Shown piece after piece: positions 38,013 to 55,367 of a DNA stretch of 64,000 nt. The translations under genes were made by a program, and so were the position numbers. The DNA comes from Paraglaciecola hydrolytica. Lineage in GTDB: Bacteria > Pseudomonadota > Gammaproteobacteria > Enterobacterales > Alteromonadaceae. Within the stretch, counting starts at the first letter, position 1. The number at the start of each line of letters is the position of its first letter. The notes under the pieces were generated by a model that was not told the DNA's origin, made no database searches, and saw only the letters and a list, made by a program, of their open reading frames with translations. Location of the stretch: the NCBI RefSeq assembly GCF_001565895.1, contig NZ_LSNE01000003.1, positions 974,380 to 1,038,379 on the forward strand. The letters are read 5' to 3'.

Positions 38013-39518
38013 CTAGTTACTCAGGAGCTCGTTGTGGCTCTTAAAGTTTAAGCCACAACGTCTAATAAAATCATTCAAGGCATCGATCTCGTGTTGATGC
38101 ATTGAATAATCAATCGAAGGGTCACTGCTTGTTGGCGGAAATACACCGTAACCGGCAAGCATGCAGGCCCATGATTTAGCTTGATAACTCCCCATCAACT
38201 TAGACCTTTGCATATCACCAGCAAAATCAGGGCTGTGCTGCCACAGCTGGATGATTCTATTTAGGGTGTCTGATATTTTGTTATTGGCCGCATTATCGCG
38301 CCAATAGGCAGTGTCCCTGCGTTGATTGGTTTTGTAGTGACACACCACATAGTCTTTGATGCCATCAAATCTGCTATTAATATCTTGGTTAAAAGCATCT
38401 TCAAATTGATTGCTAAACTGACCTTGCTGAAAATACTGCATAAATTGCGCAATGGTATTAAAGGACAAGGCAATTGCGGTTGCTTCCAAAGGTTCGATAA
38501 AACCTTGTGCTAGCCCAACGGCCAGACAATTTTTGTACCAATGCTTTTCAACTCGCCCTACTTGCATTTTTAAATGGCGAGCTTCAACGTCGCTGTGCAA
38601 TAAGCCCAAATGTTGCCTCAGCTCTGTCTCAGCTTGATTTGCATCAATGTAGTCACTGCTGAACACATAACCATTGCCAAAACGATTTCTAAGCGGAATT
38701 TGCCAGGCCCAACCGTTAGACAAGGCAGTAGCTTTGGTTTCTACTGGTAGCTCTTGGGAAATGACACTTGGCATCACTACAGCTGCATCATTGAACAAAC
38801 ACTCTTTAAAACTCCGATAGCCGACCTTCAAGGTTTTTTGTATCAATAAAGAATTAAAACCCGAACAATCGATGAAAAAGTCTGCCTCCATCATGGTGCC
38901 ATCGCTGAGTATTGCCGCGTTTAGCTCGCCATGATTGTTCTGACTTACCTTAGTGACGGTGCCATATACTCTTTTAACACCAAGGCTTTGAGCATGTTCT
39001 GCTAAAAATTGCCCAAGCAGAGCGGAATCAAAGTGATAGCCATAAGCAAGCCCAAAAGGAAAAGTGTCATTTGGCAACGGGCCTAGTTTGTTTGCGGCTA
39101 AATAGCTTTCTAAAAAGTACTTATCGGGGTGGGCATCAACTTTATAACCTTGCATGCGCGCTTGAATATTTTTGAAAAAAAGCGGTACGGTGAATACATC
39201 GTCAGTTTGCGCTGCAAAGGGATGAAAGTAAGACTCAAAACCCTTCACTGTTGACCAACCATCAAAAGTAATACCATTTTTGTAAGTCGCGTTACAGCGT
39301 GGCATCCACTGAGAGTCCGCCACATTAATGGCATCAAAAAACAACTTTAAGTGAGGAGTACTACCTTCTCCGACGCCAATAATGCCGATGTCTTTTGACT
39401 CCACTAAACAAATCTCAGTGTCTTGCCACTTAGTTGCCAACAAGTTAGCTGCCATCCAACCTGCGGTGCCACCGCCCACAATCAGGATTTTTTTAGGTTT
39501 GCCCTTACTTTCTAACAT
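38013..39518 (-). CDS. Flavin-dependent halogenase homologue (first)
   Basis: A 501-residue protein of the tryptophan halogenase family. It has the FAD motif GGGTAG (15-20), the lysine equivalent to PrnA K79 (K80 in ATYKNG), the halogenase motif WAWQIP (270-275), and the EPLEATA segment holding the catalytic glutamate. The chemistry residues are therefore intact, suggesting a real halogenase or an FAD monooxygenase. It is the last gene of a leftward operon with a JmjC/cupin gene and a second paralogue, next to a TonB receptor. Such clusters are common in polysaccharide-utilising Alteromonadales and Caulobacterales, with unknown substrates. Confidence 0.85.
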   Translation of the reverse strand: MLESKGKPKKILIVGGGTAGWMAANLLATKWQDTEICLVESKDIGIIGVGEGSTPHLKLFFDAINVADSQWMPRCNATYKNGITFDGWSTVKGFESYFHPFAAQTDDVFTVPLFFKNIQARMQGYKVDAHPDKYFLESYLAANKLGPLPNDTFPFGLAYGYHFDSALLGQFLAEHAQSLGVKRVYGTVTKVSQNNHGELNAAILSDGTMMEADFFIDCSGFNSLLIQKTLKVGYRSFKECLFNDAAVVMPSVISQELPVETKATALSNGWAWQIPLRNRFGNGYVFSSDYIDANQAETELRQHLGLLHSDVEARHLKMQVGRVEKHWYKNCLAVGLAQGFIEPLEATAIALSFNTIAQFMQYFQQGQFSNQFEDAFNQDINSRFDGIKDYVVCHYKTNQRRDTAYWRDNAANNKISDTLNRIIQLWQHSPDFAGDMQRSKLMGSYQAKSWACMLAGYGVFPPTSSDPSIDYSMHQHEIDALNDFIRRCGLNFKSHNELLSN

Positions 39519-39547
39519 AGGTATTTACCATTAATAATTTCTCATCT

Positions 39548-40576
39548 TTACTTTTGAAGCTTTTTTATAAAGTAGTCTTTGACGGTTTTTGCGTAGTCAT
39601 CTGATATTTCACCGAGTAAATGCAGTTGATGTTCGGGAATGTAAGCCTTCGGATGTGATGTCGAGTCTGGGTTTTGCTGAAATAAATAGTGATCAAACAT
39701 ATTGCGCCAGGCATTGCGTTGTAAAGGGCTTAGATCTCGCATGGCCAGCAATGCCAAGTTCAAACTATCAATGGGACTCGGCGACATTGAGTTTGGTGCT
39801 GATGAGCCTGTCCACCAGTAATTCATTAAGGCGTTCACTTTTTCCAAGGATTCAACATGATGCCACCACAACATAGGAATAAAAATCCCATCACCAGGGC
39901 CTAATTCAACACTGTAGGCTTCAGCCAGGGCATGTTTGAACAGTGGAAAGCGGTCAAAATCAGGCTTGTTTAAATCAACCAAACTGGTAGGTGCACCGGC
40001 TGGGGTAAAGTTAAGTGGACCGGGGTATAAATGGCCAGTTTGCTCGGGTGGAAACAGCACAAAACGTCGACGCCCGGCGATAACACAAGCCACATTATCC
40101 GAACCATCATAATGGGCGCTAACAATGCCCTCGTTGCCTACCCATAAACGAGGCTCTAATTCTGGGAAAAATGCCGAGCGATTTTCATCCACTAAACCCG
40201 GTAATATCTCACTCGTGAGGGTGTTTTGCATGGAAATAGCTGGATAAACTTCTCTATCGATTAGCTCTAACAAGCGACCTAAAAACAAATCTATACGCTC
40301 TTCCCCACTCAAATAATTTACATCTGTCATCTCATCGTTGTAATAAAAACGTTTGTTGGCAGAGGGCGGCGCCACCACCATTTTGGTTTTTTTACCTGTA
40401 TAAAACTGATTAAGATAGGCAACAAAATCAGCTGGCGATTGTTGCGCAGCAGCGACTAATGGCCAATTACTCGCAAATCCACGTATCACTATCGGTAGTT
40501 GTGCCGGCGCAATCTCTGCAAAAAATTGCTGAGGACTTAATGTGGCATATTCTGCAATAGTTTTGTATGTCGTCAT
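39548..40576 (-). CDS. Cupin-like (JmjC/cupin_8) Fe(II) dioxygenase
   Basis: A 342-residue protein with a cupin_8/JmjC fold. The Fe(II) ligands H-x-D lie in SAHYDGSDN, and a distal histidine is in GIFIPMLWWHHVES; the strand GRRRFVLFPPEQ between them is typical. The family hydroxylates proteins or small molecules using 2-oxoglutarate. It lies between two halogenase-like genes, 29 and 10 bases away, clearly in one operon, suggesting the three proteins act on a common substrate or modify secreted or TonB-associated proteins. Confidence 0.85.
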   Translation of the reverse strand: MTTYKTIAEYATLSPQQFFAEIAPAQLPIVIRGFASNWPLVAAAQQSPADFVAYLNQFYTGKKTKMVVAPPSANKRFYYNDEMTDVNYLSGEERIDLFLGRLLELIDREVYPAISMQNTLTSEILPGLVDENRSAFFPELEPRLWVGNEGIVSAHYDGSDNVACVIAGRRRFVLFPPEQTGHLYPGPLNFTPAGAPTSLVDLNKPDFDRFPLFKHALAEAYSVELGPGDGIFIPMLWWHHVESLEKVNALMNYWWTGSSAPNSMSPSPIDSLNLALLAMRDLSPLQRNAWRNMFDHYLFQQNPDSTSHPKAYIPEHQLHLLGEISDDYAKTVKDYFIKKLQK

Positions 40577-40586
40577 GGCTCGGTTA

Positions 40587-42104
40587 TCACGTCTTCATAT
40601 TTGAATTTGCAGAGCAGTGCGCCTGAATATAATCATGGTGATTGGGCATTTTTAGCACTGCCGTTTGGATATCTTGCACATTTTTATTGAGTGTCGTAGC
40701 TAAACTTTGGCTATCAAAAGCGTCGAGCAAGGGATGATATTTTTGTGGGCGTATTTTCATGCCTTCTAAAATAGAACACCAACTATCACTGCTAAAAAAC
40801 TGACCTTGAGTATGATCTAACAATCCTCTTTGTTTAAATAGACGGATCTTTTCACTTAAGGATTCAGGCACAGGCATCGTTTGGCACCAACGCCAAAACT
40901 CAGTATCGTCACGGCCTGCAGTAGAATAATGCAAAATAATAAAATCGCGGATCTCTAGGTAATCGGCATCGATTAGTTGGTTAAAGCGTTGTTCGTTATC
41001 AGTGTCAAAATCCCTATCAGGAAAATGTTTAATAAAATGCACTAGGGTTTTATACACTAAATGAATCGCGGTAGATTCCAAGGGCTCTAAAAAACCGCTG
41101 GCAAGTCCTAAGGTTAAACAGTTGTTATGCCAGATTTTTTTCCGCTTACCGGTAGTAAAAGGAATGATCCTTGGTTCATTAAGCAAGGTACCACTCACAC
41201 TTTTTAGTAAGGTATTGATAGCTTCTTCATCACTGCAAAAACGGCTAGCATATACATAACCGTTACCAGTACGGTTTTGCAAAGGGATTTTCCATGTCCA
41301 GCCTGCTTCACGAGCGGTTGCTACAGTATAGGGGACGGGATTAGCCGTATTAGTTGTTTGTAGCGCTACAGCGCGATCACAAGGTAAATAGTCAGACCAA
41401 TCCTCAAAGCCCACCTTTAAGGATTTTTCAATCAAAAGCCCAGAGTAGCCAGTACAATCAATAAAAAACTCACTTTCCACCGTCGCCCCGTTATCCAACT
41501 TTACGCTGCGAATAAAGGCTTTTTTATCGACAATAACGTTTTTTACTGTTGCTTCAATTCTTGTTACCCCACGTTGCTGGCAAAGTTCGCGCAGATACCT
41601 TGCAACGAGCACCGCATCTAAGTGAAAGGCATGGGCATAGCTGGCTAATACCCAATCTTGAGATTGTTGGGGCCGCAACATAAAGCGCTCATGTTCGGCC
41701 ATTACCGCAGCCGGGGAATAAGCAAGCCAAGGTATTGTTTGCCCGTCAGCCTGCGACTTTAACCAGGCCTGATAGAAATCAAAACCATTAATATCTTTGC
41801 CCACTTTACCAAAAGGATGAAAGTAGCTTTGGTTAGGTGCGTGCCAATCGTCGAAGCGAATACCTAATTTAAATGTGGCAGAGGTAGCTTGGATAAATTC
41901 TTTAAGGTTAATTTGACTAGCTTGGATAAACTCCAGTATGGACGGTACGGTAGACTCACCTACACCAATGGTGGCGATATCTGGGGATTCAATCACCGTG
42001 ATCTGGATCTTGCTGCCCCTTAGGATACTCGATAATAAGGTTGCGGCCATCCAACCCGCGGTGCCACCACCAACAATACAGAGTGATTTTAGTGTGTTTT
42101 GCAT
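40587..42104 (-). CDS. Flavin-dependent halogenase homologue (second)
   Basis: A 505-residue member of the tryptophan halogenase family, a distant paralogue of the one at 38013. The FAD motif GGGTAG (12-17), K79 (ATFKLG), WTWKIP (269-274) and EPLESTA are all present. It follows the TonB receptor gene, separated by a stem-loop, and precedes the cupin gene. In characterised halogenases the motif WxWxIP prevents a monooxygenase reaction, so halide chemistry is plausible, but tryptophan is not necessarily the substrate. Confidence 0.85.
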   Translation of the reverse strand: MQNTLKSLCIVGGGTAGWMAATLLSSILRGSKIQITVIESPDIATIGVGESTVPSILEFIQASQINLKEFIQATSATFKLGIRFDDWHAPNQSYFHPFGKVGKDINGFDFYQAWLKSQADGQTIPWLAYSPAAVMAEHERFMLRPQQSQDWVLASYAHAFHLDAVLVARYLRELCQQRGVTRIEATVKNVIVDKKAFIRSVKLDNGATVESEFFIDCTGYSGLLIEKSLKVGFEDWSDYLPCDRAVALQTTNTANPVPYTVATAREAGWTWKIPLQNRTGNGYVYASRFCSDEEAINTLLKSVSGTLLNEPRIIPFTTGKRKKIWHNNCLTLGLASGFLEPLESTAIHLVYKTLVHFIKHFPDRDFDTDNEQRFNQLIDADYLEIRDFIILHYSTAGRDDTEFWRWCQTMPVPESLSEKIRLFKQRGLLDHTQGQFFSSDSWCSILEGMKIRPQKYHPLLDAFDSQSLATTLNKNVQDIQTAVLKMPNHHDYIQAHCSANSNMKT

Positions 42105-42200
42105 CGTGAAACTGTCGTTAGTTTAATCATCATCTCATCGTGCCAGACTAACATTTAGTTGTTGGTTTAAAGTACAAAATTGGTGCTTAAAAACAAAGAA

Positions 42201-42230
42201 AAACTGCGTAGCATTGCTACTACGCAGTTT
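42201..42230. terminator. Stem-loop after the TonB receptor gene
   Basis: An 11-bp perfect stem (42201-42211 with 42220-42230) with an 8-base loop. On the minus strand it is followed by TTTTTC, so it probably attenuates the receptor transcript before the halogenase genes. Confidence 0.82.
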
Positions 42231-42258
42231 CTATTTTTGCATTCACTATGTTTAACGA

Positions 42259-45200
42259 TTAAAAAGTCGCTCTAACCGTTAAGGCATAACGACGGTCTGT
42301 CATGAAAGTAAATGCATCAGTTAAGGTGCCTTCCTGATTTTGTTGGTATTGGGTTTGGGTATCTGTACCCAGTACGTTATTAACTTGTAAGCCGACTTTT
42401 AGTTGCTCGTTTATCGCATAAAAGAAGCTTGCATCCATCATGCCCTGGGCCTTTGAATAGGCCGGCACAAACTCTTCCGACTCACGTAAGGTCAACAAGT
42501 ATTCTGACCGCCATGTATAAGCTAAACGGAACGAAATGTCGTTTTTCTCATACATGCCTACAATATTAAAGTTTTGGTCTGAATAACCCTGTAATGGCAA
42601 GTCAGTAAACTGTCTAAAGGTATTACGATTGTCTAGGATCGGCACACCAGCACCGTTAAATTGCAGTGCTTGAGTAGGATTGGTATTAGGATCTTCCAGC
42701 CCGTTTTGGTCGATGTAGGTATAGTTAAACTGTGTACCTAAACCACTCCATAAACCGGGTAACATATCGTAAAACTGAGTATACGAAAGCTCGAAACCAC
42801 GAATGGTGCCCGAACCTGTGTTATCTGGACCATAAGCAGACACAGGGAAGCTAGTGCCATCCACTTCGACTTCAGTGGCAAATTGTTTATTACGAATGAT
42901 GTTCGACAGTTTTTTATGGAACAAACCAAGGGTCAACGAACCGGCAGGCGCAAAGTACCATTCAGCGGTTAAATCCAAGTTAACCGATTCTTCTGGCTCT
43001 AAGAAAGCGTTACGGGCATTAGCACTGATTTCAATGTTTTTTAGATCAATAACGGGGTTAGTGGTGTCATCTCTGGCTTCATTAGGATCCTGTAGTACCT
43101 GTTGATAATCCAGGTTCAGCACCATTTTGTTAGCCGAATCAACCAGACTTGGATAATAAAGCCCTTTAGACGCGCCAAATCTCACCACAAACTCGTCAGT
43201 AAGGCCGAAGCTCAGGTTTAAGCTAGGCAGTACAGTTGTATAATCTGTCCCATCTATGGTGCTAGAGATAGCTTCGCCTGAAGCGAAGGCAAAAATACTC
43301 GGGTATTGATTCAACATAACTTGGTAAAGCGAACCTGCTTCATCGGTGCCACGTCTAGCCGTTGAGGGGAAATTGATCCCTCCAGTCGATTCAAGCTGGT
43401 AACTAACATAACGTAAGCCAAAATTACCTTTGACTAGTACATCAGACATCTCAACATCAAAATCGGCACGTACATAAAACTCATTACGTTCAGTGCTACT
43501 TGAACTAATATGACGCGGCGCAAAATGACTGAAAGTACGATCAGCTAAGTCTGCATAGGGCACCGCACAAGTGCCGCTGCCATCCATTGCATTTCCCACG
43601 GCATTCCATGTACCACAACCATCTCGTAAGGATTGTGCGTAATTTTGTACCAAATCCATACGCGGAAACAAAAAGCTGTTATAAGCTCCCATTAGCGTAC
43701 TGCCATCATTGTGGTCAGCAAAACTAATACGTTCAAATAATTCGGGCACCACTTGTGGAGACGCATTGTAGGAGTTTTGTGCAACCCATGGCGTACCTAA
43801 GGCTTGCCATCCTTCGTATTCAGTATTACGTACGGTCAACTCTTTCTTGGAAAGATAGAGTCCGGTTTTAATGGCGGTAAACGCTCCATCTAGTTTGTAC
43901 TCTAGATCTAACTTAAAGGTATTAGCCTTAGCTTCATTAAACTCTTCTTGTTGCATGCCGCTACCTAATCGCAGAATAGGGGCGGTATTGGCTTCGACGT
44001 CTGGCGGAGTAGAAGTATTGGCACTTAAATACTCAAGAGTTGGATTTGAACCGCGTAAATCCAAGAAAAACGGCGCATTTATAGCGGTTTGATTGCCATT
44101 CATGATGGAAGTCATGCCGTTGTTGTGCACAGTTTGATCAGAATCAACATACTGATAATCCACTACCGCGGTTAAACGATCGGTAGGTTTAAACACGACA
44201 TTTAATGAAGTGTCTTGAACAGTGTTTTCATTGAAGTTGTAACGAGAGCGGAACTGCAGAGGAACATTTGGCTCATTTGCACGGCCTACACCTGAGGTGA
44301 CATAGCCGTTACTATCTACTGTTAATGGACGGCCTTCATCACTTTCATCAAACCATTGAATAGTATTAGGTGTGAAGGACAAAAAGCCACGATCACCAGA
44401 GGCAACGACACGTTCACGCCAATCTAGAGATGCTTTAGAACTAATATGTTCTAAGGTAGCGGTAATCTTTTCATCCACACTCTGCCATTGTAATGACGCG
44501 GTAAAACCTTGGCGTTTACGATCATTTTCTGCAGATGTCATGGTATAACTCGCTGGTGCAAACCAAGTTACGCCATCGGGTTGGCCTTCAAGGGCTTGTC
44601 CATCAAATTCAGGAACATAATTGGCGGCGTCAGTGGCAGTATACTGAACCGTATCTTCAAAACCGGGACCACAAGCGCGCCAACCTGGATCCCCAGGAAT
44701 ACAAGGATTAGAATATTGGCCAGCGTTAACGCCTGGGCTGGGCGTGCCCCATTCATCGTAGGAAAAAGTATCAACCGGACCACGGCTGTGGTAATTGCCT
44801 AAACCAAAACCATCACCACGAGTTTTAAATTCAGACTGAGACGCCGCAACCAATAAACCAAACTTACCCGCATCGGTATCCCAATTATCAGAAAAAAGTG
44901 CAGAAAACGAGGGAGTGGTTTCTTCGCGGTAATCACCGTAATTGGCTTGTGCACTTACAGAAATTAAACGTTTATCAGAATCAAAAGGTTTACGCGTAAT
45001 TAAATTAACGGTACCCGAAATACCACCAGAAATAAGATCAGCAGTTTGGTTTTTTACCACTTCTACTGCACCTAACAATTCAGCAGGAAAATCTTCATAA
45101 CTGAGTCCGCCCCATGGATTAGCACTGAAAGAGTCACGGCCATTAATTTCACTGCGCACCCGATCCAAACCACGCACCAACACGCTAGTACCTTCATCGG

Positions 45201-45525
45201 CATAATGTTTAGGATCATCAGATGAAGCAAAACGCTCAATGGTTACACCCGGCACACGTTGTAGTGCTTCTGTAACAGAGCTATCTGGCAGTGCGCCAAT
45301 GTCTGAGGCAGTAATAACGTCTTTTACTGTATCAGCTAATTTTTTCAAATCTTGCGCTGTTTGAATGCTGTTACGCATACCGCGAATTTCGATTGTTTCT
45401 GTAGAGTCATCTAAATTTTGCGTTGCAGAGGCTGTTTCTTGTGCAAAAACTGATGCCGAGAATGCACAAGAAATAGCCGCAGATACTGCAATGACTAGAC
45501 GTTTTTTCTTAAAATTGTTAGACAT
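42259..45525 (-). CDS. TonB-dependent receptor, carbohydrate-type
   Basis: A 1088-residue outer membrane receptor. Signal peptide about residues 1-28 (ending VFA). A TonB-box-like region near TETIEIRG is followed by the plug domain, with VTEALQRVPGVTIER, VLVRGLDRVR and SGGISGTVNLITRKPF. The beta-barrel runs to the C-terminal phenylalanine (LTVRATF). Size and plug type match the TonB receptors of marine polysaccharide loci rather than siderophore receptors. It is divergent from a GH16/GH18 gene and probably imports glucan or chitin oligosaccharides. A LacI-type palindrome lies 68 bases upstream. Confidence 0.93.
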   Translation of the reverse strand: MSNNFKKKRLVIAVSAAISCAFSASVFAQETASATQNLDDSTETIEIRGMRNSIQTAQDLKKLADTVKDVITASDIGALPDSSVTEALQRVPGVTIERFASSDDPKHYADEGTSVLVRGLDRVRSEINGRDSFSANPWGGLSYEDFPAELLGAVEVVKNQTADLISGGISGTVNLITRKPFDSDKRLISVSAQANYGDYREETTPSFSALFSDNWDTDAGKFGLLVAASQSEFKTRGDGFGLGNYHSRGPVDTFSYDEWGTPSPGVNAGQYSNPCIPGDPGWRACGPGFEDTVQYTATDAANYVPEFDGQALEGQPDGVTWFAPASYTMTSAENDRKRQGFTASLQWQSVDEKITATLEHISSKASLDWRERVVASGDRGFLSFTPNTIQWFDESDEGRPLTVDSNGYVTSGVGRANEPNVPLQFRSRYNFNENTVQDTSLNVVFKPTDRLTAVVDYQYVDSDQTVHNNGMTSIMNGNQTAINAPFFLDLRGSNPTLEYLSANTSTPPDVEANTAPILRLGSGMQQEEFNEAKANTFKLDLEYKLDGAFTAIKTGLYLSKKELTVRNTEYEGWQALGTPWVAQNSYNASPQVVPELFERISFADHNDGSTLMGAYNSFLFPRMDLVQNYAQSLRDGCGTWNAVGNAMDGSGTCAVPYADLADRTFSHFAPRHISSSSTERNEFYVRADFDVEMSDVLVKGNFGLRYVSYQLESTGGINFPSTARRGTDEAGSLYQVMLNQYPSIFAFASGEAISSTIDGTDYTTVLPSLNLSFGLTDEFVVRFGASKGLYYPSLVDSANKMVLNLDYQQVLQDPNEARDDTTNPVIDLKNIEISANARNAFLEPEESVNLDLTAEWYFAPAGSLTLGLFHKKLSNIIRNKQFATEVEVDGTSFPVSAYGPDNTGSGTIRGFELSYTQFYDMLPGLWSGLGTQFNYTYIDQNGLEDPNTNPTQALQFNGAGVPILDNRNTFRQFTDLPLQGYSDQNFNIVGMYEKNDISFRLAYTWRSEYLLTLRESEEFVPAYSKAQGMMDASFFYAINEQLKVGLQVNNVLGTDTQTQYQQNQEGTLTDAFTFMTDRRYALTVRATF

Positions 45526-45905: not shown

Positions 45906-46038
45906 TCGGCTTCTAATGTGGTTCACAAATATTCTAGTGCAGTGTGACTTAGGCAATTTTTTTGCAGGGGATGTATTAAGTTTTTATATCTTGCATAACG
46001 GCACCGCGATTAACTTTTTTGCACAATTTGAGAACCAA

Positions 46039-47442
46039 ATGAAAATATTTTTGATTTTAGTTTTAGCGACATTATTGATTTCCTGTGGTGGAACCTCATC
46101 AGATATACCACTTCAGAGACCAGCTCAGCAGCCTAGTCCTCAAACCAATCTGGTGCCCGAAGTATGCCGTCCTGCGGAACAAAATAGTCAAATTAGCCAA
46201 GGTGGTAAATGGCAACTCGTGTGGGCCGATGAATTTGATGGTAAGGCAATCGATGGGAGTAAATGGCAATACGAAACTAACTGTGCTGGCGGAGGTAATA
46301 ATGAATTGCAATGTTATGTCGAAGACGATGCTAATGCCTTTGTTGCAGAGGGCCAGTTACATATAGTTGCGTTAAATCAGCCTGTTACAGGAGATTCTGG
46401 TTGGTTTGGTAATTCAGGCAATGTGGTGTCCCGTGATTATTCATCAGCACGGTTACATACGCTTGAAACTGCTACCAAACCACGTGTAGTGGGTTACTTA
46501 CCAGGTTATAAGGGACTAACTGAAAGTATTAAAAATGTGGATTTGCATAATCTAACTCACCTTAATTTATCTTTTGCTAATCCCAATGCCGAGGGGGATT
46601 TTCTACTTAATGAAAATTTATTGTGTATGCCTGGATACAGCACAGAGCATGTCAAAGGTGATGAAATACGTGAGGTGGTAGAACGTGCCCATCAAGCAGG
46701 AGTTCAAGTATTGATGTCGTTGGCGGGCGGGGTGATCCCTAGTTGTTCAGGGGATTGGCACCGCTTATTACAGAGTGAAAATCGCCCACAACTGGTCAGC
46801 AAATTAATCAACTTGATGACAGACTTAAACCTTGATGGTTTGGATATAGATCTTGAAGGGATTTTGCTGACTCAAATTGATAATGCAGGTAATTACACGC
46901 CTTTTATTCAGGCGCTGTCGGCCCAATTAAAACCTCAAGGTAAATTATTAACAAGTGCCACCGCCTCTTATGAGGGGGGCATGATCCCGATAGATTCGAT
47001 CTCTTATTTTGATTTTGTGAATATCATGTCGTATGACGCTATTGGTCCTAGTTGGGGGCAAGCTGGTATTGAACATTCTACGTATCAGCAAGCAGTGCAG
47101 GATGTGCAGCTATGGCTCCACCGAGGTTTAACTAAACAACAGTTAGTGTTGGGATTACCTTTTTACGGCTATGGCTTTGGCCAGTATCGGAGTGATTACG
47201 CTATTAAAGATCTGGTTGCTTTGTATGGTAGTGACATTTTGCAACAGGATGTCATGGGTAATTTGTGTGCAGGTTGTGACTACATTACTTACAACGGTTT
47301 AGTTACTTTACAAGCCAAAACTGAATTGGCACTTAAACATGGCTCAGGTGTGATGATTTGGGAGTTGTCTCACGACTCAAGTCGTACTTCAAATATTTTG
47401 GCAACTATTGCCTCTCAGGTCGCTGCCCCCAAAACTCTTTAA
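46039..47442 (+). CDS. Lipoprotein with truncated GH16 fused to GH18
   Basis: A 467-residue lipoprotein (lipobox LISC, C16). Residues about 58-141 match the N-terminal third of a bacterial GH16 laminarinase (WQLVWADEFDG, KWQYETNC, YSSARL). The match stops before the catalytic EIDIFE strand. From about residue 146 (KPRVVGYLPGYKG) an entire GH18 barrel follows, with the catalytic DGLDIDLE at 266-273 (E273 the proton donor) and the later strands FDFVNIMSYD and VLGLPFYGYGF. The open frame is continuous. The GH16 part alone cannot be catalytic; it may act as a binding or structural module, or be a relic of recombination. GH18 members hydrolyse chitin or related GlcNAc polymers. Confidence 0.85.
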   Translation: MKIFLILVLATLLISCGGTSSDIPLQRPAQQPSPQTNLVPEVCRPAEQNSQISQGGKWQLVWADEFDGKAIDGSKWQYETNCAGGGNNELQCYVEDDANAFVAEGQLHIVALNQPVTGDSGWFGNSGNVVSRDYSSARLHTLETATKPRVVGYLPGYKGLTESIKNVDLHNLTHLNLSFANPNAEGDFLLNENLLCMPGYSTEHVKGDEIREVVERAHQAGVQVLMSLAGGVIPSCSGDWHRLLQSENRPQLVSKLINLMTDLNLDGLDIDLEGILLTQIDNAGNYTPFIQALSAQLKPQGKLLTSATASYEGGMIPIDSISYFDFVNIMSYDAIGPSWGQAGIEHSTYQQAVQDVQLWLHRGLTKQQLVLGLPFYGYGFGQYRSDYAIKDLVALYGSDILQQDVMGNLCAGCDYITYNGLVTLQAKTELALKHGSGVMIWELSHDSSRTSNILATIASQVAAPKTL

Positions 47443-47850: not shown

Positions 47851-48540
47851 ATGAACAAATTGAAGGCAATGTTGGGCGGTTTAGTGGTTATTTTTATGAG
47901 TGGGTCTTTGTCTGCAGCGATGATTACCAATGGCGATTTTGCCAACTCATGTAGCTTAAACGGTTGGCAAACCGATACTGATGGCTTTGCGGGTGGAACA
48001 AATGACTTCACTCTTGATGGCAGTGCTCCCAATTGCGCAGCTTCAATCAATGTTGATTATGCCAATACCGATGTTTATTACGCAGCCAATACACTATTTC
48101 AAAATCTCGATCTTAGTGGTGCAAGTAGCAGTACTTTTTTACTGACTATGGATTTTAGTGTCTTTAGCGAATCGAACAGTAACGAACAGGATTTTATTGC
48201 AGATTATTTCATGATTGCTTTGTTTGATGGCAGTGACTATTACAATCAACATGGCGATTTTGGGTTTTTGGTATCACCCACCGATATCGATGGTAGTCAA
48301 AACTACAACTTGTCTTTTGAGCTTGATAGCTCCTTTGCTAACCAAACTAACTGGAGTTTGGATTTTCAGGTGTTACTAGGCATTGCAGGGTTTGATACTG
48401 ACTTTTTTGGTTCCACCCTGTCTATCAGTAGTGTCAGCTTAACTGAGCAAAAAGCCGTGGTGGGTGCATCGACTCCCGCATCTTTGGCACTGTTTGCACT
48501 TGGCTTATTTGGTCTAGCTGTTCGTCGCAAAACATTTTAA
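47851..48540 (+). CDS. PEP-CTERM sorting-signal protein
   Basis: A 229-residue secreted protein. Signal peptide about 1-23 (MNKLKAMLGG...SLSA), then a beta-rich jelly-roll-like body with a few cysteines, and a C-terminal sorting signal: a TPAS motif, a hydrophobic helix (LALFALGLFGLAV) and a terminal RRK. This is the tripartite layout of PEP-CTERM substrates, with TPAS in place of canonical PEP. The body may bind glucan, since it is 14 bases upstream of, and cotranscribed with, the giant laminarinase gene. The exosortase is not in this window. Confidence 0.8.
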   Translation: MNKLKAMLGGLVVIFMSGSLSAAMITNGDFANSCSLNGWQTDTDGFAGGTNDFTLDGSAPNCAASINVDYANTDVYYAANTLFQNLDLSGASSSTFLLTMDFSVFSESNSNEQDFIADYFMIALFDGSDYYNQHGDFGFLVSPTDIDGSQNYNLSFELDSSFANQTNWSLDFQVLLGIAGFDTDFFGSTLSISSVSLTEQKAVVGASTPASLALFALGLFGLAVRRKTF

Positions 48541-48554
48541 ACAAGGATGTCAGT

Positions 48555-51500
48555 ATGAAAACCTTTAATTTATTAAGAGGTCTCGTTTGTGGCCTCTGTT
48601 TTATTTGGTCTGTTCCTTCGTTAGCAGATTGGAGCCCCATTGACGCGGGGCTTGATTTAAGCTCCTCTCGTCCAGTACTTGATCGAGTAACTCGCACCAA
48701 CAAAGTATTGGTGACCATCAAAAATACGTCTGCAACAGCCTTAGCTGGACCTTTTCACTTAGTCATTGGTAATACCTCTGTGCCTGTGGTCAATGCTGAC
48801 GGACAAACCACCGAAGAACAACCTTATCTGTTAGTGAACAAAGAACAACTTGCTGCCGGTGAGTCTTTTAACATTAATGTTGCTTTTGAGCTTACCCGTG
48901 GTGCCATCACTTTTGATTTAAGCCTACAGAATAACGCTTCAGACTGGACTATGGTGTGGAACGATGAATTTGATGGCAGCAACATTGACCTGAATAAGTG
49001 GAGCTACGCCTTAGATTGTAACGGTGGTGGCAATGCTGAAAAACAATGTTATACCGACAATGCTGAAAATGCTTATTTGGATAATGGCGTGCTCAAGATT
49101 GTGGCTAAGCCACAAGCGGGACAACCATTGCCTTATAGCTCAGCTAAATTGCTGACCAAAGGTAAAGCGGATTGGACTTACGGCCGTTTTGAAATTCGTG
49201 CCAAGGCGCCTAGAGGTCAAGGTTCATGGCCAGCAATTTGGATGTTACCGACTGAGCAAGTTTATGGTGGTTGGCCACATTCTGGTGAAATAGATATTTT
49301 TGAAGCAGTTAACCTCGGTGCGCCTTTATCTGCTGGTTCTGCCGAGGTGCAAACTGATGTATATGGCACATTGCATTATGGTAAAAGCTGGCCGAATAAC
49401 GATCATTCCGGTCATAACTATGTATTAGCGAATAAAGAAAACCCAGCGGATGCTTTTCATGTTTATGCCCTTGAATGGGAAGAGGGAGAGATGCGTTGGT
49501 ATATGGACGGCGTGTTGTATGCAACCCAGCGCCAGTCTGAAGTAACAGTAAACGGGCAAGGGCAGCCTGATGGTTTGTCACACAAAGGCTGGTATACCGA
49601 AATCAATGGTGAAGTAGTGTGGAATGCCGCTCCCTTTGATGAAAAATTTCATTTGATCTTAAATTTTGCAGTGGGTGGTAGTTGGCCTGAAAACGTTAAT
49701 ACTGGCGGTGTTGATCCCAGTGCTTTTCATCAAAATAATATCTTTGAAGTGGATTATGTGCGTGTTTATGAATGTTCAATCTCTCCGCTTAATGGCCAAG
49801 GCTGTGCCACGGTGACCCCCGGCTATGATGAGCTAATTCAAAATGGCGGCACCCTAAAACAAGGTCAAGCGCCTACGCCGGTGCCACCTTCTGATGGTAT
49901 TGCCCGCGAGTTGGTGATATTTGCCGATGAGATGCATGAAAGCTGGCCAGCTTGGGATTGTTGTGGTGGTTCAACACCAGCAGTAGTGTTAGAGGACGGA
50001 GAGCACGGCGGTGTGGTGGAGTTTGCCATCGGCTCAACACCTACCGTAGTGGGTTTTAATACCAATGTTTCTAATCTACCTAAACCCTATGATGGTTCGC
50101 CGATGTTAAATAACGGCGTATTAGAATTTGATCTTAAACTGGTCAGCGCGCCTACCAATACCAGCGCTAGTTGGAATCTTAAAGTAGAGCAAGCAGGTGC
50201 TACCACTGAGGCTGTTGTCACTATTAAAACCCCTACGACTGAATGGCAGCATTATGCTATTCCGCTACGTAATCTTGCAGGGGGTGGACTTAACCTAAAC
50301 GGTATCGACGTGGTGATGATTTTTCCTGATTGGGGACAAGGTGAAGGTGCAGTATTCAGAGTCGATAATGTGGCTTTTGTCGAAGGTGAGGTAGCTCCGC
50401 CGGGTAATGGCCTGGATAAACAGGTATTAGTGGATTTTGAACAAACTCAGGCAAGTTATGGTTTTAACAATTTTGATGGTGGGGTTTCTACTGTCATTGC
50501 CAATCCACACAGTAGCAGTGCTAATTCCAGTGCCCAAGTCGTGCAAATGCAGAAGTTTGCCGCCCAATCTTGGGGTGGTACTACTTTCAATCTAGCTGCG
50601 CCCATCGATGTAGATAATAGTTTGTTTAGCATGAAGGTGTGGTCTGATCGAGCAGTCAATGTGCTGTTTAAACTAGAGGGCATGAATGTTGAGCGCAATG
50701 TGGCTCATAGTGGTTCTGGCTGGGAAGAACTGACCTTTGACTTTAGCGGTGCAGTAGGCACAGGTGTAACAAAAATCACGGTTATTTTTGATTTAGGTAT
50801 CATGGGTAATGCTGCAGGTAATCCGAGCAACTGGACCTTTTTCTACGACGATGTTGCCTTCTATGTGGAGCCACAAAACGAGGTGCTGGATTTTGAACAA
50901 GCGGTTAACTCTTATGGGTTTAATAACTTTGATGGTGGTGTTTCTACTGTCATAGCTAACCCACATAGCACAGATATCAATATCAGTGCACAAGTGGTGC
51001 AAATGCAAAAATTTGCCGCGCAATCTTGGGGTGGTTCTACCTTAGATTTGCCTGCGCCTATTGATGTTGATGGTACAGTGTTCAAGATGAAAGTCTGGTC
51101 GAACCGAGTGGTCAATGTGTTGTTTAAGCTTGAAGGCATGAATGTCGAACGTAACGTGGCACACAGCGGTTCGGGTTGGGAAGAACTCATTTTTGACTTT
51201 GCCGGCGCAGTGGGTACTAACGTCAGTAAAATAACCATCATCTTTGATTTAGGTGTGATGGGTGATGCCAATAACAATCCAGATAATTGGACCTTCTACT
51301 ACGACGACATTACTTATCCCAAGGCTGAGGAAGTGGTTGAGCCACCACCGCCAGCCTCTGGTTTTAAAGTGGATTTTGAGTCTGCGCCCTCAAGTTACGT
51401 TTTTGTCAATTTTGATGGTGGTGTATCCACAGTTGTTGCTAACCCTCATAGTGGTGCAGGTAATAGCAGTGCCCAAGTGGTAAAAATGCAAAAATATGCT

Positions 51501-54500
51501 GGGCAGCATTGGGGTGGCTCTACCTTGAATTTGAGCTCAGCCATCAATGTTGATAATTCAGTGTTTAGCCTTAAAGTCTGGTCAGACCGAGCCGTTGATG
51601 TGCTGTTTAAACTTGAAGGCATGAATGTTGAACGCATCGTTGCTCATAGTGGTTCTGGCTGGGAGCTATTAAATTTTGATTTTGCTGGAGCAGTGGGTAG
51701 TGGTGTCAGCCAAATTACCTTGATTTTTGATTTGGGCACTTTGGGTAATGCTGATTCTGATCCGGCTAACTGGACCTTTTATTACGACGATATGGGCTTT
51801 GCAACTGACGAGGAAGCCGACTCATCTACCTTGTTAGTTGATTTTGAAGCAAGCCCTGCCAGTTATACTTTCACCAACTTTGATGGCGGCGTGGCAACGG
51901 TTATCGCCAATCCACAAAATAGTGCGGCCAATACCAGTGTGCAAGTAGCACAAATGCAAAAATTTGCAGCTCAACATTGGGGGGGCACGACGCTAAATCT
52001 GGATTCACCTGTGGATATTGATAACACTATCTTCACGATGAAAGTCTGGTCGGCACGGGCAGTTAACGTACTGTTTAAACTCGAAGGATTAAATCAAGAA
52101 CGCAACGTGGCCCATAGCGGCAGCGGCTGGGAGGTCTTGCCCTTTGATTTTACGGGAGTTACCGGCAGTCTTAGTCAAATTACCCTTATTTATGATCTGG
52201 GTATAATGGGCGATGCCGCCGGTAATGCTGCGGCTTGGACTTTTTATTTTGACGATATAGCCTATTTAGGTTCTTCAGCAGCAACAGATACCGACGGTGA
52301 TGGGGTGTTAGACGGTGATGATTTATGCCCTAATACTCCCGCGGGTACTGCAGTCGATGAAAACGGCTGTACCCTTGTGGCCAATGTTGATAGCGATGGT
52401 GACGGTGTGTATGACAATGTTGATGCCTGTCCAGGTACACCTGCAGGTACACCAGTGAATGCCGCAGGTTGTGCCATTGTTACTGGCAGTGTCACAGGTA
52501 TAGAGCAATTTAGTGCCAATGCAGTGGTATTTTATGTGAATACTGTGGGTTGGGCCGATGTGCATTATCGCCTTAACGGAGGTGGTCAACAAAATCTGCG
52601 TATGCAAAATGCTGGCTCACGCAATACCTATAACCTTGGCAATCTGACCAGTGGTGATGTGATCAGCTACAACTTTACCTATTTACAAGATAGTGGCCCG
52701 GTAATTGATTCTCCTATCGCTACTTATATTGTAGGTAATGATTTGTCTGCTGATACCGATGGTGATGGAGTGGGAGATCCTTTTGATAATTGCCCTAATA
52801 CACCAGCAGGTGATGAAGTTGATGCCAACGGCTGTACCATTGTAGTTATCGGCGACAGTGATAATGATGGTGTACTGGATGATGTTGATCTTTGCCCCAA
52901 TACCGCACCTGGTGTTGATGTAGATGCTGATGGTTGTGCCTTAATCCCCATTGACGATGCTGATAATGATGGCGTGGCTGATGAGTTTGACCAATGCCCA
53001 GCAACCCCTGCTAACAGCTTAGTTGATGCGCAAGGCTGCCCCATAGTGCAATCGGTCAGCGAAGTATCGTCGATTAATGATATTTTAGTGGGTGGTTACG
53101 GCTCTCCGCGCGCAGGTTTTGCTCTCTACGTGTTTGACAATGATTTACCCATTGTTGACGGCAGTATTTGTAATGATGGCTGCGCCACCAACTGGCCGCC
53201 GCTATTAGTGGCTGACGGTGTAGCTTCTGGTGTAGCGGGTTTAAGCACAATTACTCGTGACGATGGCAGCATCCAAGCTACCCATAACGACCGTCCTTTG
53301 TATTTTTACAGTGGTGATTTGGCCGCTGGCGATACCAACGGCGATGGTTTAGGTGGTGTGTGGCATCTGGTTGCTTACAGTATCAATATTGGCGACATTA
53401 CGCCCTTATATAGTGGTAGCACAACGTTAGAGCAACCTATCTCCTTTGACCGGGGTGATGCTTTAGTCACACGCTTTGCCGACCGTGGCCGAGATCGTCA
53501 TGCCAAAGAAGATCAGTTCCAAATTTACGATCATTACCTTTCACATTATTGGACTCACCGTACTGCACAATTTGAATTTGTCGATTATGTGGCTAAAGGT
53601 GGCTCCACCATCGAGGTTAATTTTATTACTGAATGGAAACTAGGCGCTCGTGAGTTCAGAGCTTGGTACCGCGGTTTAGGCACAGTAGCCGAATATCACG
53701 GTAACTACTTTGGTGGCGGCGCGGTAGTAGAGGTTGATAACGGTAGTTACGATTTTAACTTTAATAAAATCAGTAATGTTGGGGATCAATACCGTTACCG
53801 TGTAGTGATTGAGGATTATCGCCCGCTAAACTGGAGTGCTTCAAACGGAATGTTGCCTTTAGAGGTAGGTCAACGTATGGAAGTGGAAGTCAGCCAGTTC
53901 CTTGATGCGCCGCCTGAAGGTCGCGAAAACTACTACGGTACTACCTACTTGTACATTGTAGGGCAAGGTATGGTGCCGTGGAAAACTGTCGGTACTTTTG
54001 GTGATTTAGCCTCAGAGCGTGAAGACTCTTATCCTATTGATCAGTCTGCCTGGTTAGGCGGTAAAACCACTTTGCCTTATAACTACACCAATGAGCCAGA
54101 CAATCACTTTATGCAAATGGCCACTAACTTGTCGAATGTAAATGGTCAGGTATTTGTAGAAGGTCGTCGGGTGCATCACAGCAGTTTTATTAATGGACAA
54201 CATGATGAACACGGTGGTGAGAATGGCATATTTAATGAAGTTGTAGGCAAAGCAGGTACTCACTACGTTAATGAGAGCTGTGCAGGTTGCCACGTCCGTA
54301 ATGGTCGCGCTGCACCAGTTGCTATTGGTGAGTCATTAGATAAGTGGGTGTTCAAAGTCGGTGATATTAGCGGCGCGCCGGATGCTAATATTGGTCGTAT
54401 CTTGCAACCCAAAAATGTCGGTATTGATAACAACACCCAAGGAGAAGGCAATGTATCTATTGCTTCGTGGACCGAGAACAACGGTTTACGCTCACCAAAT

Positions 54501-55367
54501 TACCAATTCAGTAAAGCTACACCTGCACAGTTTTCGGCACGTATAGCGCCACAACTGGTGGGTTTAGGTTTGTTAGAAGCCATTCCTGAATCGGCCATCA
54601 TCGCCATGGAAGACGCTGATGATCTAGATGATGATGGGATCTCAGGTCGCGCCCAACGCACATTAGATCCACAGACTGGTGAAACCCGTTTAGGCCGCTT
54701 TGGTTATAAAGCTGCGGCTTTTAGTATCAAACATCAGGTAGCCACTGCCTTTAACAATGATATGGGTGTTATGAATAGCATATTGCCTGAGCCAGATTGT
54801 GGTTCTGCGCAAACGACTTGTGGAGTTGCAGGTTCAGAAGTTTCCGACAAACACCTGGATGAACTGAGTAAATATATTTCATTGTTGGGCGTGCGCGCAC
54901 AACGTGATATTGATAGTACGCAAGTTCAACAAGGTAAAGCCCTGTTCTCCAACATTGGTTGTGTGGGTTGTCATACTGATACTTTACAAACCAGTGAATT
55001 CCATCCTTTATCGGAGTTAAGAAGTCAAACCATCCATCCTTATACTGACTTGCTATTGCATGATATGGGGGAAGGTTTAGCTGATTCCTTGGCTGAAGGG
55101 CAGGCCAGTGGTGCCGAATGGCGTACTGCGCCGTTATGGGGTTTAGGGTTGTCAGCTTGTGTGACGGCCGGCGTAACCAATCCTATCGGAGGCCAAGGCA
55201 ATGAAATATGCACACCGGAACATAGTTATTTGCATGATGGTCGTGCACGTACTATTGAAGAAGCTGTGTTGTGGCATGGTGGCGAATCTGCGGCATCAAG
55301 AGTCGCTTTTGAAAGCCTTAACTCAGGTGATAAAGCCGCAGTTTTGGCGTTTTTAAACTCTTTATAA
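48555..55367 (+). CDS. Multidomain laminarinase-di-haem oxidoreductase fusion
   Basis: A 2270-residue secreted protein. Order, with approximate residues: signal peptide 1-24; Ig-like domain 25-128; GH16 endo-beta-1,3-glucanase 131-406 with catalytic E245-I-D247-I-F-E250; a galactose-binding-like carbohydrate module 449-613; four tandem beta-sandwich repeats of about 150 residues (626-1238); calcium-binding thrombospondin-3 repeats (1245-1300, 1398-1496) around a CBM56-like beta-1,3-glucan module (1313-1393); a PF03640-like 'secreted repeat' 1506-1607; and a DHOR/DUF1111 di-haem cytochrome c oxidoreductase 1620-2270 with haem sites C1909-x2-C1912-H1913 and C2136-x2-C2139-H2140. It should be exported by Sec and need Ccm haem attachment. 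No sorting signal is seen at the C-terminus. One open frame supports a real fusion; the redox role is unknown. Confidence 0.88.
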   Translation: MKTFNLLRGLVCGLCFIWSVPSLADWSPIDAGLDLSSSRPVLDRVTRTNKVLVTIKNTSATALAGPFHLVIGNTSVPVVNADGQTTEEQPYLLVNKEQLAAGESFNINVAFELTRGAITFDLSLQNNASDWTMVWNDEFDGSNIDLNKWSYALDCNGGGNAEKQCYTDNAENAYLDNGVLKIVAKPQAGQPLPYSSAKLLTKGKADWTYGRFEIRAKAPRGQGSWPAIWMLPTEQVYGGWPHSGEIDIFEAVNLGAPLSAGSAEVQTDVYGTLHYGKSWPNNDHSGHNYVLANKENPADAFHVYALEWEEGEMRWYMDGVLYATQRQSEVTVNGQGQPDGLSHKGWYTEINGEVVWNAAPFDEKFHLILNFAVGGSWPENVNTGGVDPSAFHQNNIFEVDYVRVYECSISPLNGQGCATVTPGYDELIQNGGTLKQGQAPTPVPPSDGIARELVIFADEMHESWPAWDCCGGSTPAVVLEDGEHGGVVEFAIGSTPTVVGFNTNVSNLPKPYDGSPMLNNGVLEFDLKLVSAPTNTSASWNLKVEQAGATTEAVVTIKTPTTEWQHYAIPLRNLAGGGLNLNGIDVVMIFPDWGQGEGAVFRVDNVAFVEGEVAPPGNGLDKQVLVDFEQTQASYGFNNFDGGVSTVIANPHSSSANSSAQVVQMQKFAAQSWGGTTFNLAAPIDVDNSLFSMKVWSDRAVNVLFKLEGMNVERNVAHSGSGWEELTFDFSGAVGTGVTKITVIFDLGIMGNAAGNPSNWTFFYDDVAFYVEPQNEVLDFEQAVNSYGFNNFDGGVSTVIANPHSTDINISAQVVQMQKFAAQSWGGSTLDLPAPIDVDGTVFKMKVWSNRVVNVLFKLEGMNVERNVAHSGSGWEELIFDFAGAVGTNVSKITIIFDLGVMGDANNNPDNWTFYYDDITYPKAEEVVEPPPPASGFKVDFESAPSSYVFVNFDGGVSTVVANPHSGAGNSSAQVVKMQKYAGQHWGGSTLNLSSAINVDNSVFSLKVWSDRAVDVLFKLEGMNVERIVAHSGSGWELLNFDFAGAVGSGVSQITLIFDLGTLGNADSDPANWTFYYDDMGFATDEEADSSTLLVDFEASPASYTFTNFDGGVATVIANPQNSAANTSVQVAQMQKFAAQHWGGTTLNLDSPVDIDNTIFTMKVWSARAVNVLFKLEGLNQERNVAHSGSGWEVLPFDFTGVTGSLSQITLIYDLGIMGDAAGNAAAWTFYFDDIAYLGSSAATDTDGDGVLDGDDLCPNTPAGTAVDENGCTLVANVDSDGDGVYDNVDACPGTPAGTPVNAAGCAIVTGSVTGIEQFSANAVVFYVNTVGWADVHYRLNGGGQQNLRMQNAGSRNTYNLGNLTSGDVISYNFTYLQDSGPVIDSPIATYIVGNDLSADTDGDGVGDPFDNCPNTPAGDEVDANGCTIVVIGDSDNDGVLDDVDLCPNTAPGVDVDADGCALIPIDDADNDGVADEFDQCPATPANSLVDAQGCPIVQSVSEVSSINDILVGGYGSPRAGFALYVFDNDLPIVDGSICNDGCATNWPPLLVADGVASGVAGLSTITRDDGSIQATHNDRPLYFYSGDLAAGDTNGDGLGGVWHLVAYSINIGDITPLYSGSTTLEQPISFDRGDALVTRFADRGRDRHAKEDQFQIYDHYLSHYWTHRTAQFEFVDYVAKGGSTIEVNFITEWKLGAREFRAWYRGLGTVAEYHGNYFGGGAVVEVDNGSYDFNFNKISNVGDQYRYRVVIEDYRPLNWSASNGMLPLEVGQRMEVEVSQFLDAPPEGRENYYGTTYLYIVGQGMVPWKTVGTFGDLASEREDSYPIDQSAWLGGKTTLPYNYTNEPDNHFMQMATNLSNVNGQVFVEGRRVHHSSFINGQHDEHGGENGIFNEVVGKAGTHYVNESCAGCHVRNGRAAPVAIGESLDKWVFKVGDISGAPDANIGRILQPKNVGIDNNTQGEGNVSIASWTENNGLRSPNYQFSKATPAQFSARIAPQLVGLGLLEAIPESAIIAMEDADDLDDDGISGRAQRTLDPQTGETRLGRFGYKAAAFSIKHQVATAFNNDMGVMNSILPEPDCGSAQTTCGVAGSEVSDKHLDELSKYISLLGVRAQRDIDSTQVQQGKALFSNIGCVGCHTDTLQTSEFHPLSELRSQTIHPYTDLLLHDMGEGLADSLAEGQASGAEWRTAPLWGLGLSACVTAGVTNPIGGQGNEICTPEHSYLHDGRARTIEEAVLWHGGESAASRVAFESLNSGDKAAVLAFLNSL
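50431..52267 (+). repeat. Four tandem intragenic repeats of about 450-480 bases
   Basis: Coding repeats starting near 50431, 50884, 51368 and 51838, each encoding a module with VDFE..., NNFDGGVSTVIANPHS, MKVWS.R.VNVLFKLEG and NWTFYYDD. Similarity is high at the DNA level between units 1 and 2. They are likely carbohydrate-binding beta-sandwiches. They can recombine or collapse in assembly. Confidence 0.85.

Follow-up and report, generated by a model that had tools for sequence, protein, structure and literature searches.

A laminarinase of Paraglaciecola hydrolytica is fused to a predicted di-haem domain resembling cytochrome c peroxidases and MauG

In a 64,000-nucleotide stretch of the Paraglaciecola hydrolytica genome, called the window below, one open reading frame joins a GH16 laminarinase domain and putative glucan-binding modules to a di-haem DHOR domain. 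Our preferred reading, which we hold at about an even chance, is that the product acts as a secreted, multimodular beta-1,3-glucanase and brings a di-haem peroxidase-type enzyme of its own, related to cytochrome c peroxidase (CCP) and MauG, to the glucan surface. The breakdown of laminarin is usually described as hydrolysis, and a di-haem enzyme within or beside several catalytic kinds of beta-glucan hydrolase would point to a redox step in this process. Laminarin is a major marine carbon pool, as stated in the excerpted text of PMC7104365. The fusion would also allow haem-loaded and haem-free forms of one polypeptide to be compared.

The frame runs on the plus strand from the ATG to the stop codon at 48555..55367 and encodes 2270 amino acids with no internal stop. 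From the ORF, its translation and Pfam, the module order was assigned as GH16, repeats, a CBM56 module between two TSP3 spacers, two PF03640 stretches, a beta-sandwich and the di-haem DHOR domain, all on the plus strand. Residues 1-24 (48555..48626) form a signal-peptide-like N-terminus as judged by eye. The GH16 domain (residues 130-406, 48942..49772) matches Pfam PF00722 (2e-16, 60.4 bits against a cut-off of 22) and the PDB laminarinase 3iln (E=6.6e-48), and its catalytic ExDxxE motif is intact, reading EIDIFE at residue 245 (49287-49304). It is followed by a weak CBM30-like module (residues 450-612, 49902..50390; PF21582, E=8.1e-4, under the Pfam cut-off), which also occurs in loci L096-L098 described below. 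Four putatively glucan-binding repeats of about 150 residues were then found by phmmer (620-775, 776-926, 935-1088 and 1089-1241; 50412..52277), the first of which matches PDB 8qx6, a 'PKD domain-containing protein' (E=9.7e-11), which we take to be a module by which a protein of a marine Bacteroidota binds laminarin. A TSP3 spacer with approximate limits 52284..52484 (PF02412, three stretches; TSP_3 at 1.1e-8, over the cut-off) leads to the CBM56 module (PF22184; residues 1315-1386, 52497..52712; 80.4 bits against a cut-off of 27, E=1.2e-22), and a second TSP3 spacer (about residues 1394-1502, 52734..53060; Pfam and NCBIfam scan) leads to the PF03640 pair (about residues 1503-1607, 53061..53375; Pfam at 1e-18, over the cut-off, NCBIfam scan and sequence). 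The pair carries CxxxC and WPP motifs directly ahead of the haem module. Additional PF03640 copies are present in L055, which has four stretches, and in L062; short phmmer matches of the PF03640 query correspond to its trailing linker. The open-licence PMC literature on PF03640 offered little of use.

These results bear out the earlier note, which had read the 2270-codon frame as a laminarinase-DHOR fusion with two CxxCH sites and with CBM56, TSP3 and PF03640 in between, each of which exceeds its Pfam cut-off; the CBM56 and PF06537 matches for which it proposed a search lie at residues 1315-1386 and 1993-2270. It had also proposed a search for homologues of the same order, and the order is nearly the same in Alteromonadaceae BrNp21-10 (L096), Alteromonas antoniana (L097) and Aliiglaciecola lipolytica (L098). 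Three repeats were seen in L096 and L097 compared with four in the window protein, and CBM56 was not seen in the L098 fusion by Pfam or phmmer. Because these three other species keep almost the same order, preceded at 13-20 bp by a related PEP-CTERM gene, misassembly is unlikely, and the possibility that the frame arose from a frameshift or an assembly fusion was rejected.

The C-terminal domain (residues 1835-2270, 54057..55364) was delimited by Pfam, Foldseek and hhalign. PF06537 (DHOR) matches residues 1993-2270 with E=8.6e-63 and 212.9 bits against a cut-off of 22, a partial match that covers only positions 212-499 of the 499 in the profile. The two haem-c motifs, CAGCH at residues 1909-1913 (54279..54293) and CVGCH at residues 2136-2140 (54960..54974), are invariant in all 75 rows of the alignment, as are H1913, H2140, H2169 and H2227, and exactly two CxxCH motifs were counted in each of 82 proteins including that of the window. 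Between the PF03640 pair and this domain, about residues 1635-1834 (53457..54056) are mostly beta in the AlphaFold model (mean pLDDT 86.6) and were delimited from the model, Foldseek and the alignment as a beta-sandwich for which no Pfam match was found; its H1649 and H1660 are likewise invariant in the 75 rows.

The DHOR half folds with a pLDDT of 88.5 in the predicted model, and its Foldseek matches at ranks 1-40 are all hydrazine synthase gamma, bacterial CCP, MauG, MauG-like 6e1c, MacA or YhjA. The best E-value was 2.3e-5 and 14 matches had E <= 0.001, with low TM-scores of 0.20-0.39 by query within ranks 1-40. By hhalign, the domain matched nine CCP/MauG homologues from related genomes at 97.4%, covering the second haem domain only. 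The whole module gave zero Foldseek matches at E <= 0.001; hydrazine synthase gamma ranked first (E=2.2e-3), and beta-sandwich proteins, copper chaperone/SOD-like ones among them, came next. PF03150 (CCP_MauG) is absent among the Pfam matches of the window protein at E <= 0.1, and the NCBIfam scan of the C-terminal half found little. The 75-row profile matched cytochrome c551 peroxidase (E=0.14) and hydrazine synthase gamma (E=0.15) weakly in the PDB, and phmmer with the C-terminal part gave a single PDB match, cytochrome c555 (E=0.043). Taken from the predicted model and the profile comparison, the DHOR domain resembles enzymes of the CCP/MauG superfamily. For DHOR proteins of about 490-580 amino acids in genomes of the same family, the alignment with the module is confined to its C-terminal part (for example L004, query 417-710), and this type of about 500 amino acids, which is linked with imelysin-like proteins in print, was rejected as the counterpart of the module.

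A simple lipobox pattern was found in none of 27 proteins fused to a glycoside hydrolase (GH), the window's included, and in 19 of 54 unfused proteins, a count that omits L161, the 343-aa fragment of L136 and L105 and rests on a crude pattern that missed some lipoproteins evident by eye. Therefore the fused forms look freely secreted and many of the unfused ones look like lipoproteins. The fusion protein would cross the inner membrane by Sec, receive two covalently attached haems c in the periplasm and then be exported in its haem-loaded form. CBM56 and the repeats would bind glucan, GH16 would cut the bound glucan, and the di-haem domain would thus be held at the particle surface, where it may use or remove peroxide. 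Such peroxide use could either oxidise a component of the glucan-rich matrix or protect the enzyme and the cell from peroxide. Peroxide handling, which the earlier note had suggested as one option, is possible and lies close to this preferred reading, in which serving as a reductase of lytic polysaccharide monooxygenases (LPMOs) would not be the main role of the domain in P. hydrolytica.

The module was then followed across other genomes. A scan of 84,980 species genomes with a 21-row alignment and two peptide patterns found 166 relatives, and because only the best 80 were kept, the kept loci are biased to close kin. Most belong to Gammaproteobacteria, namely Alteromonas, Colwellia, Pseudoalteromonas, Rheinheimera, Cellvibrio, Microbulbifer, Gilvimarinus, Reinekea and others; outside this class are two Planctomycetota records and one Mariprofundus metagenome-assembled genome (MAG). 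In 26 of these best 80 of 166 relatives the module is fused to a glycoside hydrolase: 3 laminarinase-type GH16, 21 KRE6-type GH16 and 2 GH3, typed by Pfam on representatives and by phmmer with single sequences on the rest. ExDxxE is present in all 24 GH16 cases. Four further genomes, all from a single other genus, carry GH81 fusions (by Pfam for L065 and L083, by phmmer for all four). The earlier note had linked glucan cleavage to a redox domain on the basis of one gene; this link recurs across many genomes, and judged from these sequences the module behaves as a mobile part that has been paired repeatedly with GH16, GH81 and GH3 enzymes.

With the window protein included and L161 and the L136 fragment omitted, a GH is present in 27 of 82 proteins, CBM56 in 45, either of the two in 50 and F5/8-type domains in 23, while eight match none of the six GH, CBM56, CBM6 and F5/8 queries; these domain calls come from single-sequence phmmer or small profiles (7 GH16 and 3 GH3 sequences). 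A 99-row tree required 10 changes for five states (four GH kinds and none) and 8 for GH versus none; it is of a quick kind, omits L161, L176, L055, L060, L062, L074, L086 and the L136 fragment, and a change on it may be either a gain or a loss. Two changes are needed for the laminarinase-type fusions, since three KRE6-type proteins of Pseudoalteromonas branch among them. Loci L076-L080 encode short forms of 716-753 aa with little beyond the module and a lipoprotein-like start by eye; therefore the module also exists without glucan modules.

Matches at E <= 1e-100 occur in 40 of 295 genomes at the family level, in 42 places, own genome included. In the class sample, 33 of 369 genomes match the profile at E <= 1e-60, and only three, the window's own included, match beyond the DHOR half. 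Within the genus, 6 of 22 genomes have a match at E <= 0.001, and the long form is present besides the window only in Paraglaciecola sp. MB-3u-78 (G012). The latter strain also has incomplete or degraded DHOR-type gene copies (L095:956-2445 and L136:6350-7381). The genus and the family of G555 gave three matches in 18 and 21 genomes, and the module protein of G555 carries, by eye from the sequence, a KRE6-type GH16 and not GH26.

Genes next to the unfused modules were compared for GH content in 50 loci, a count that omits L105, L124, L161 and L163. With the small profile, GH16 is the next same-strand gene in 13 of the 50, at a distance of 10-327 bp; six of these cases are from Colwellia, six from Microbulbifer and one from a Cellvibrionales MAG, and they are not independent because the two genera contribute 12 of the 13. 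Of the 96 ORFs at rank 1, 14 are GH16, compared with none of the 102 at ranks 5-8. Either GH16 or GH3 lies within four genes in 21 of the 50 loci. Pfam confirmed GH16 in all three of the 13 adjacent genes that were submitted to it and in the large one of L166; ten neighbours from four loci were assigned by Pfam as GH16, GH3, a TonB receptor, a sugar MFS transporter and an unrelated DNA glycosylase-like gene. Since 29 of the 50 loci have zero GH16 or GH3 within the ORFs ranked and eight of the 82 proteins match none of the queries, glucan enzymes are not a universal partner.

The window contains further genes upstream of the fusion. At 38013-45525 on the minus strand lie two Trp-halogenase-family genes, a cupin_8-like gene and a TonB receptor, which are common to L096 at 77-85% identity; among the loci compared, halogenase relatives occur in 14, TonB receptor relatives in 13 and cupin relatives in 7. 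The gene at 45916-47442 on the plus strand is a GH18 by Pfam, and a stretch at about residues 98-182 resembles the N-terminal region of GH16 enzymes, with 49% identity to a neighbour in L155 and 50% to one in L169. No GH16 catalytic motif was seen in this stretch, which is joined in frame to GH18; the gene is chimeric, perhaps as the result of a deletion. Elsewhere in the genome, contig C5 holds 6 of its 8 GH16 matches at 166-231 kb.

The di-haem domain might instead supply electrons to another oxidase outside the cell, for instance an LPMO, in the way that X183 of Cbp2D serves AA10 enzymes, and the earlier note had drawn on Cbp2D as an analogy and suggested a search for LPMOs. Cbp2D likewise links a c-type haem to a CBM, and in the excerpted text of PMC8981238 CjX183 from Cellvibrio japonicus Cbp2D reduces LPMOs in vitro. 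Among genomes that have the module, 14 of 39 contain LPMO_10 (PF03067), compared with 1 of 21 among those that lack the module. This pattern follows genus lines, and LPMO_10 is present in all four GH81-fusion genomes and all four genomes of genus g17, which have KRE6-type GH16 fusions; an LPMO partnership is therefore possible elsewhere but not needed. Against this, PF03067 has no match in the genome of P. hydrolytica, in 15 other genomes of its genus (0/16 counting its own) or in G043 and G212, the two other laminarinase-type fusion genomes tested, and in fold the domain comes closest to di-haem peroxidases and MauG. Since the haem domain is CCP/MauG-like and the genome has no LPMO_10 match, the LPMO-helper reading is unsupported here and was rejected as the main one for this genome, and the analogy of the earlier note does not carry over as a mechanism; we consider electron transfer to a separate oxidase quite unlikely. 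We also regard as unlikely, if somewhat less so, a new oxidative route beside hydrolysis in which the di-haem domain acts directly on beta-1,3-linked polysaccharide, oxidising it or loosening its triple helix. RoxA-type di-haem rubber oxygenases show that such folds can attack polymers. The module is attached to several GH kinds and CBM56, and the published GH26 case targets 1,3-xylan, also 1,3-linked (excerpted text of PMC9638140); the nearest Foldseek matches are nevertheless peroxidases, MauG and hydrazine synthase gamma.

A role like that of MauG or MbnH, in which the domain would oxidise a residue of a partner protein, of its own modules or of a PEP-CTERM neighbour, seems improbable to us. 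It draws on MauG and a MauG-like protein among the nearest folds and on a gene for a PEP-CTERM/THxN-like protein (47851..48540, plus strand; Pfam and NCBIfam, both below curated cut-offs) that lies 14 bp upstream of the fusion. Related genes precede the L096, L097 and L098 fusions by 13, 13 and 20 bp, so that such a gene accompanies all four laminarinase-type fusions seen; identity to the window's PEP-CTERM protein is 46% for L098 and a loose 35% and 32% for the other two. Yet none was found beside the other fusion types in L096-L175, the weak matches in Rheinheimera loci (E 4.5e-5 and 9.3e-5) being kilobases distant, and in G043 the adjacent copy resembles the window's PEP-CTERM protein less (42%, E=9.6e-16) than does a second copy elsewhere (48%, E=1.6e-48). 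A redox-dead spacer or carbohydrate-binding domain retained for structure, an option raised by the Xyn65 authors in the excerpted text of PMC9638140, is very improbable given the two CxxCH motifs intact in 82 of 82 proteins and the four histidines invariant in 75 of 75 rows.

Beyond the preferred reading, a glucanase that carries a peroxidase-type enzyme to its substrate, we advance a broader proposal only tentatively. A CCP/MauG-type di-haem enzyme may have been recruited repeatedly to beta-1,3-polysaccharide hydrolases (two GH16 kinds, GH81 and GH3, and GH26 in print) because polysaccharides that are beta-1,3-linked, triple-helical or matrix-bound are degraded with the help of an LPMO-independent oxidative step. 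Its recurrence with different sugar-cutting enzymes hints that such a step in beta-glucan degradation has been overlooked.

Several known systems share features with the window protein. Cbp2D and Cbp2E of Cellvibrio japonicus are carbohydrate-binding redox proteins required for polysaccharide use (excerpted text of PMC8981238 and PMC12542752); they differ in having an LPMO partner reached through the small c-type cytochrome X183, whereas the window protein has a predicted two-haem, peroxidase-like fold in a genome with no LPMO_10 match. Bacterial CCP, MauG, MauG-like 6e1c and hydrazine synthase gamma share the predicted fold of the DHOR half, including the hhalign match to the second haem domain, and differ from the window protein in its fused GH and CBMs, its additional beta-sandwich and PF03640 and its lack of a PF03150 match. 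DUF1111/DHOR proteins linked with imelysin-like proteins have PF06537/DUF1111 in common with it (excerpted text of PMC3143127). The earlier note had stated that glycoside hydrolases are not normally tethered to c-type cytochromes; besides the 26 of 80 related loci, an exception is Xyn65 of Gilvimarinus xylanilyticus (WP_253968372.1), published in 2022, and no other glucanase-DHOR work was among the matches listed in open-licence PMC. According to the excerpted text of PMC9638140, Xyn65 has the order GH26-CBM31-CBM6-Big-DHOR, accounted for 82.3% of the strain's secreted 1,3-xylanase spectra and cleaved 1,3-xylan by ordinary hydrolysis in assays without an added redox step; its authors wrote that DHOR had previously not been found in GHs and proposed that it either acts as an oxidoreductase or has a novel function in binding or stabilisation. 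Xyn65 is a GH26 xylanase and the window protein a GH16 enzyme, and as far as its published description allows the comparison, both combine GH, CBMs and DHOR in a single, in our case putatively secreted, polypeptide directed at a 1,3-linked marine polysaccharide.
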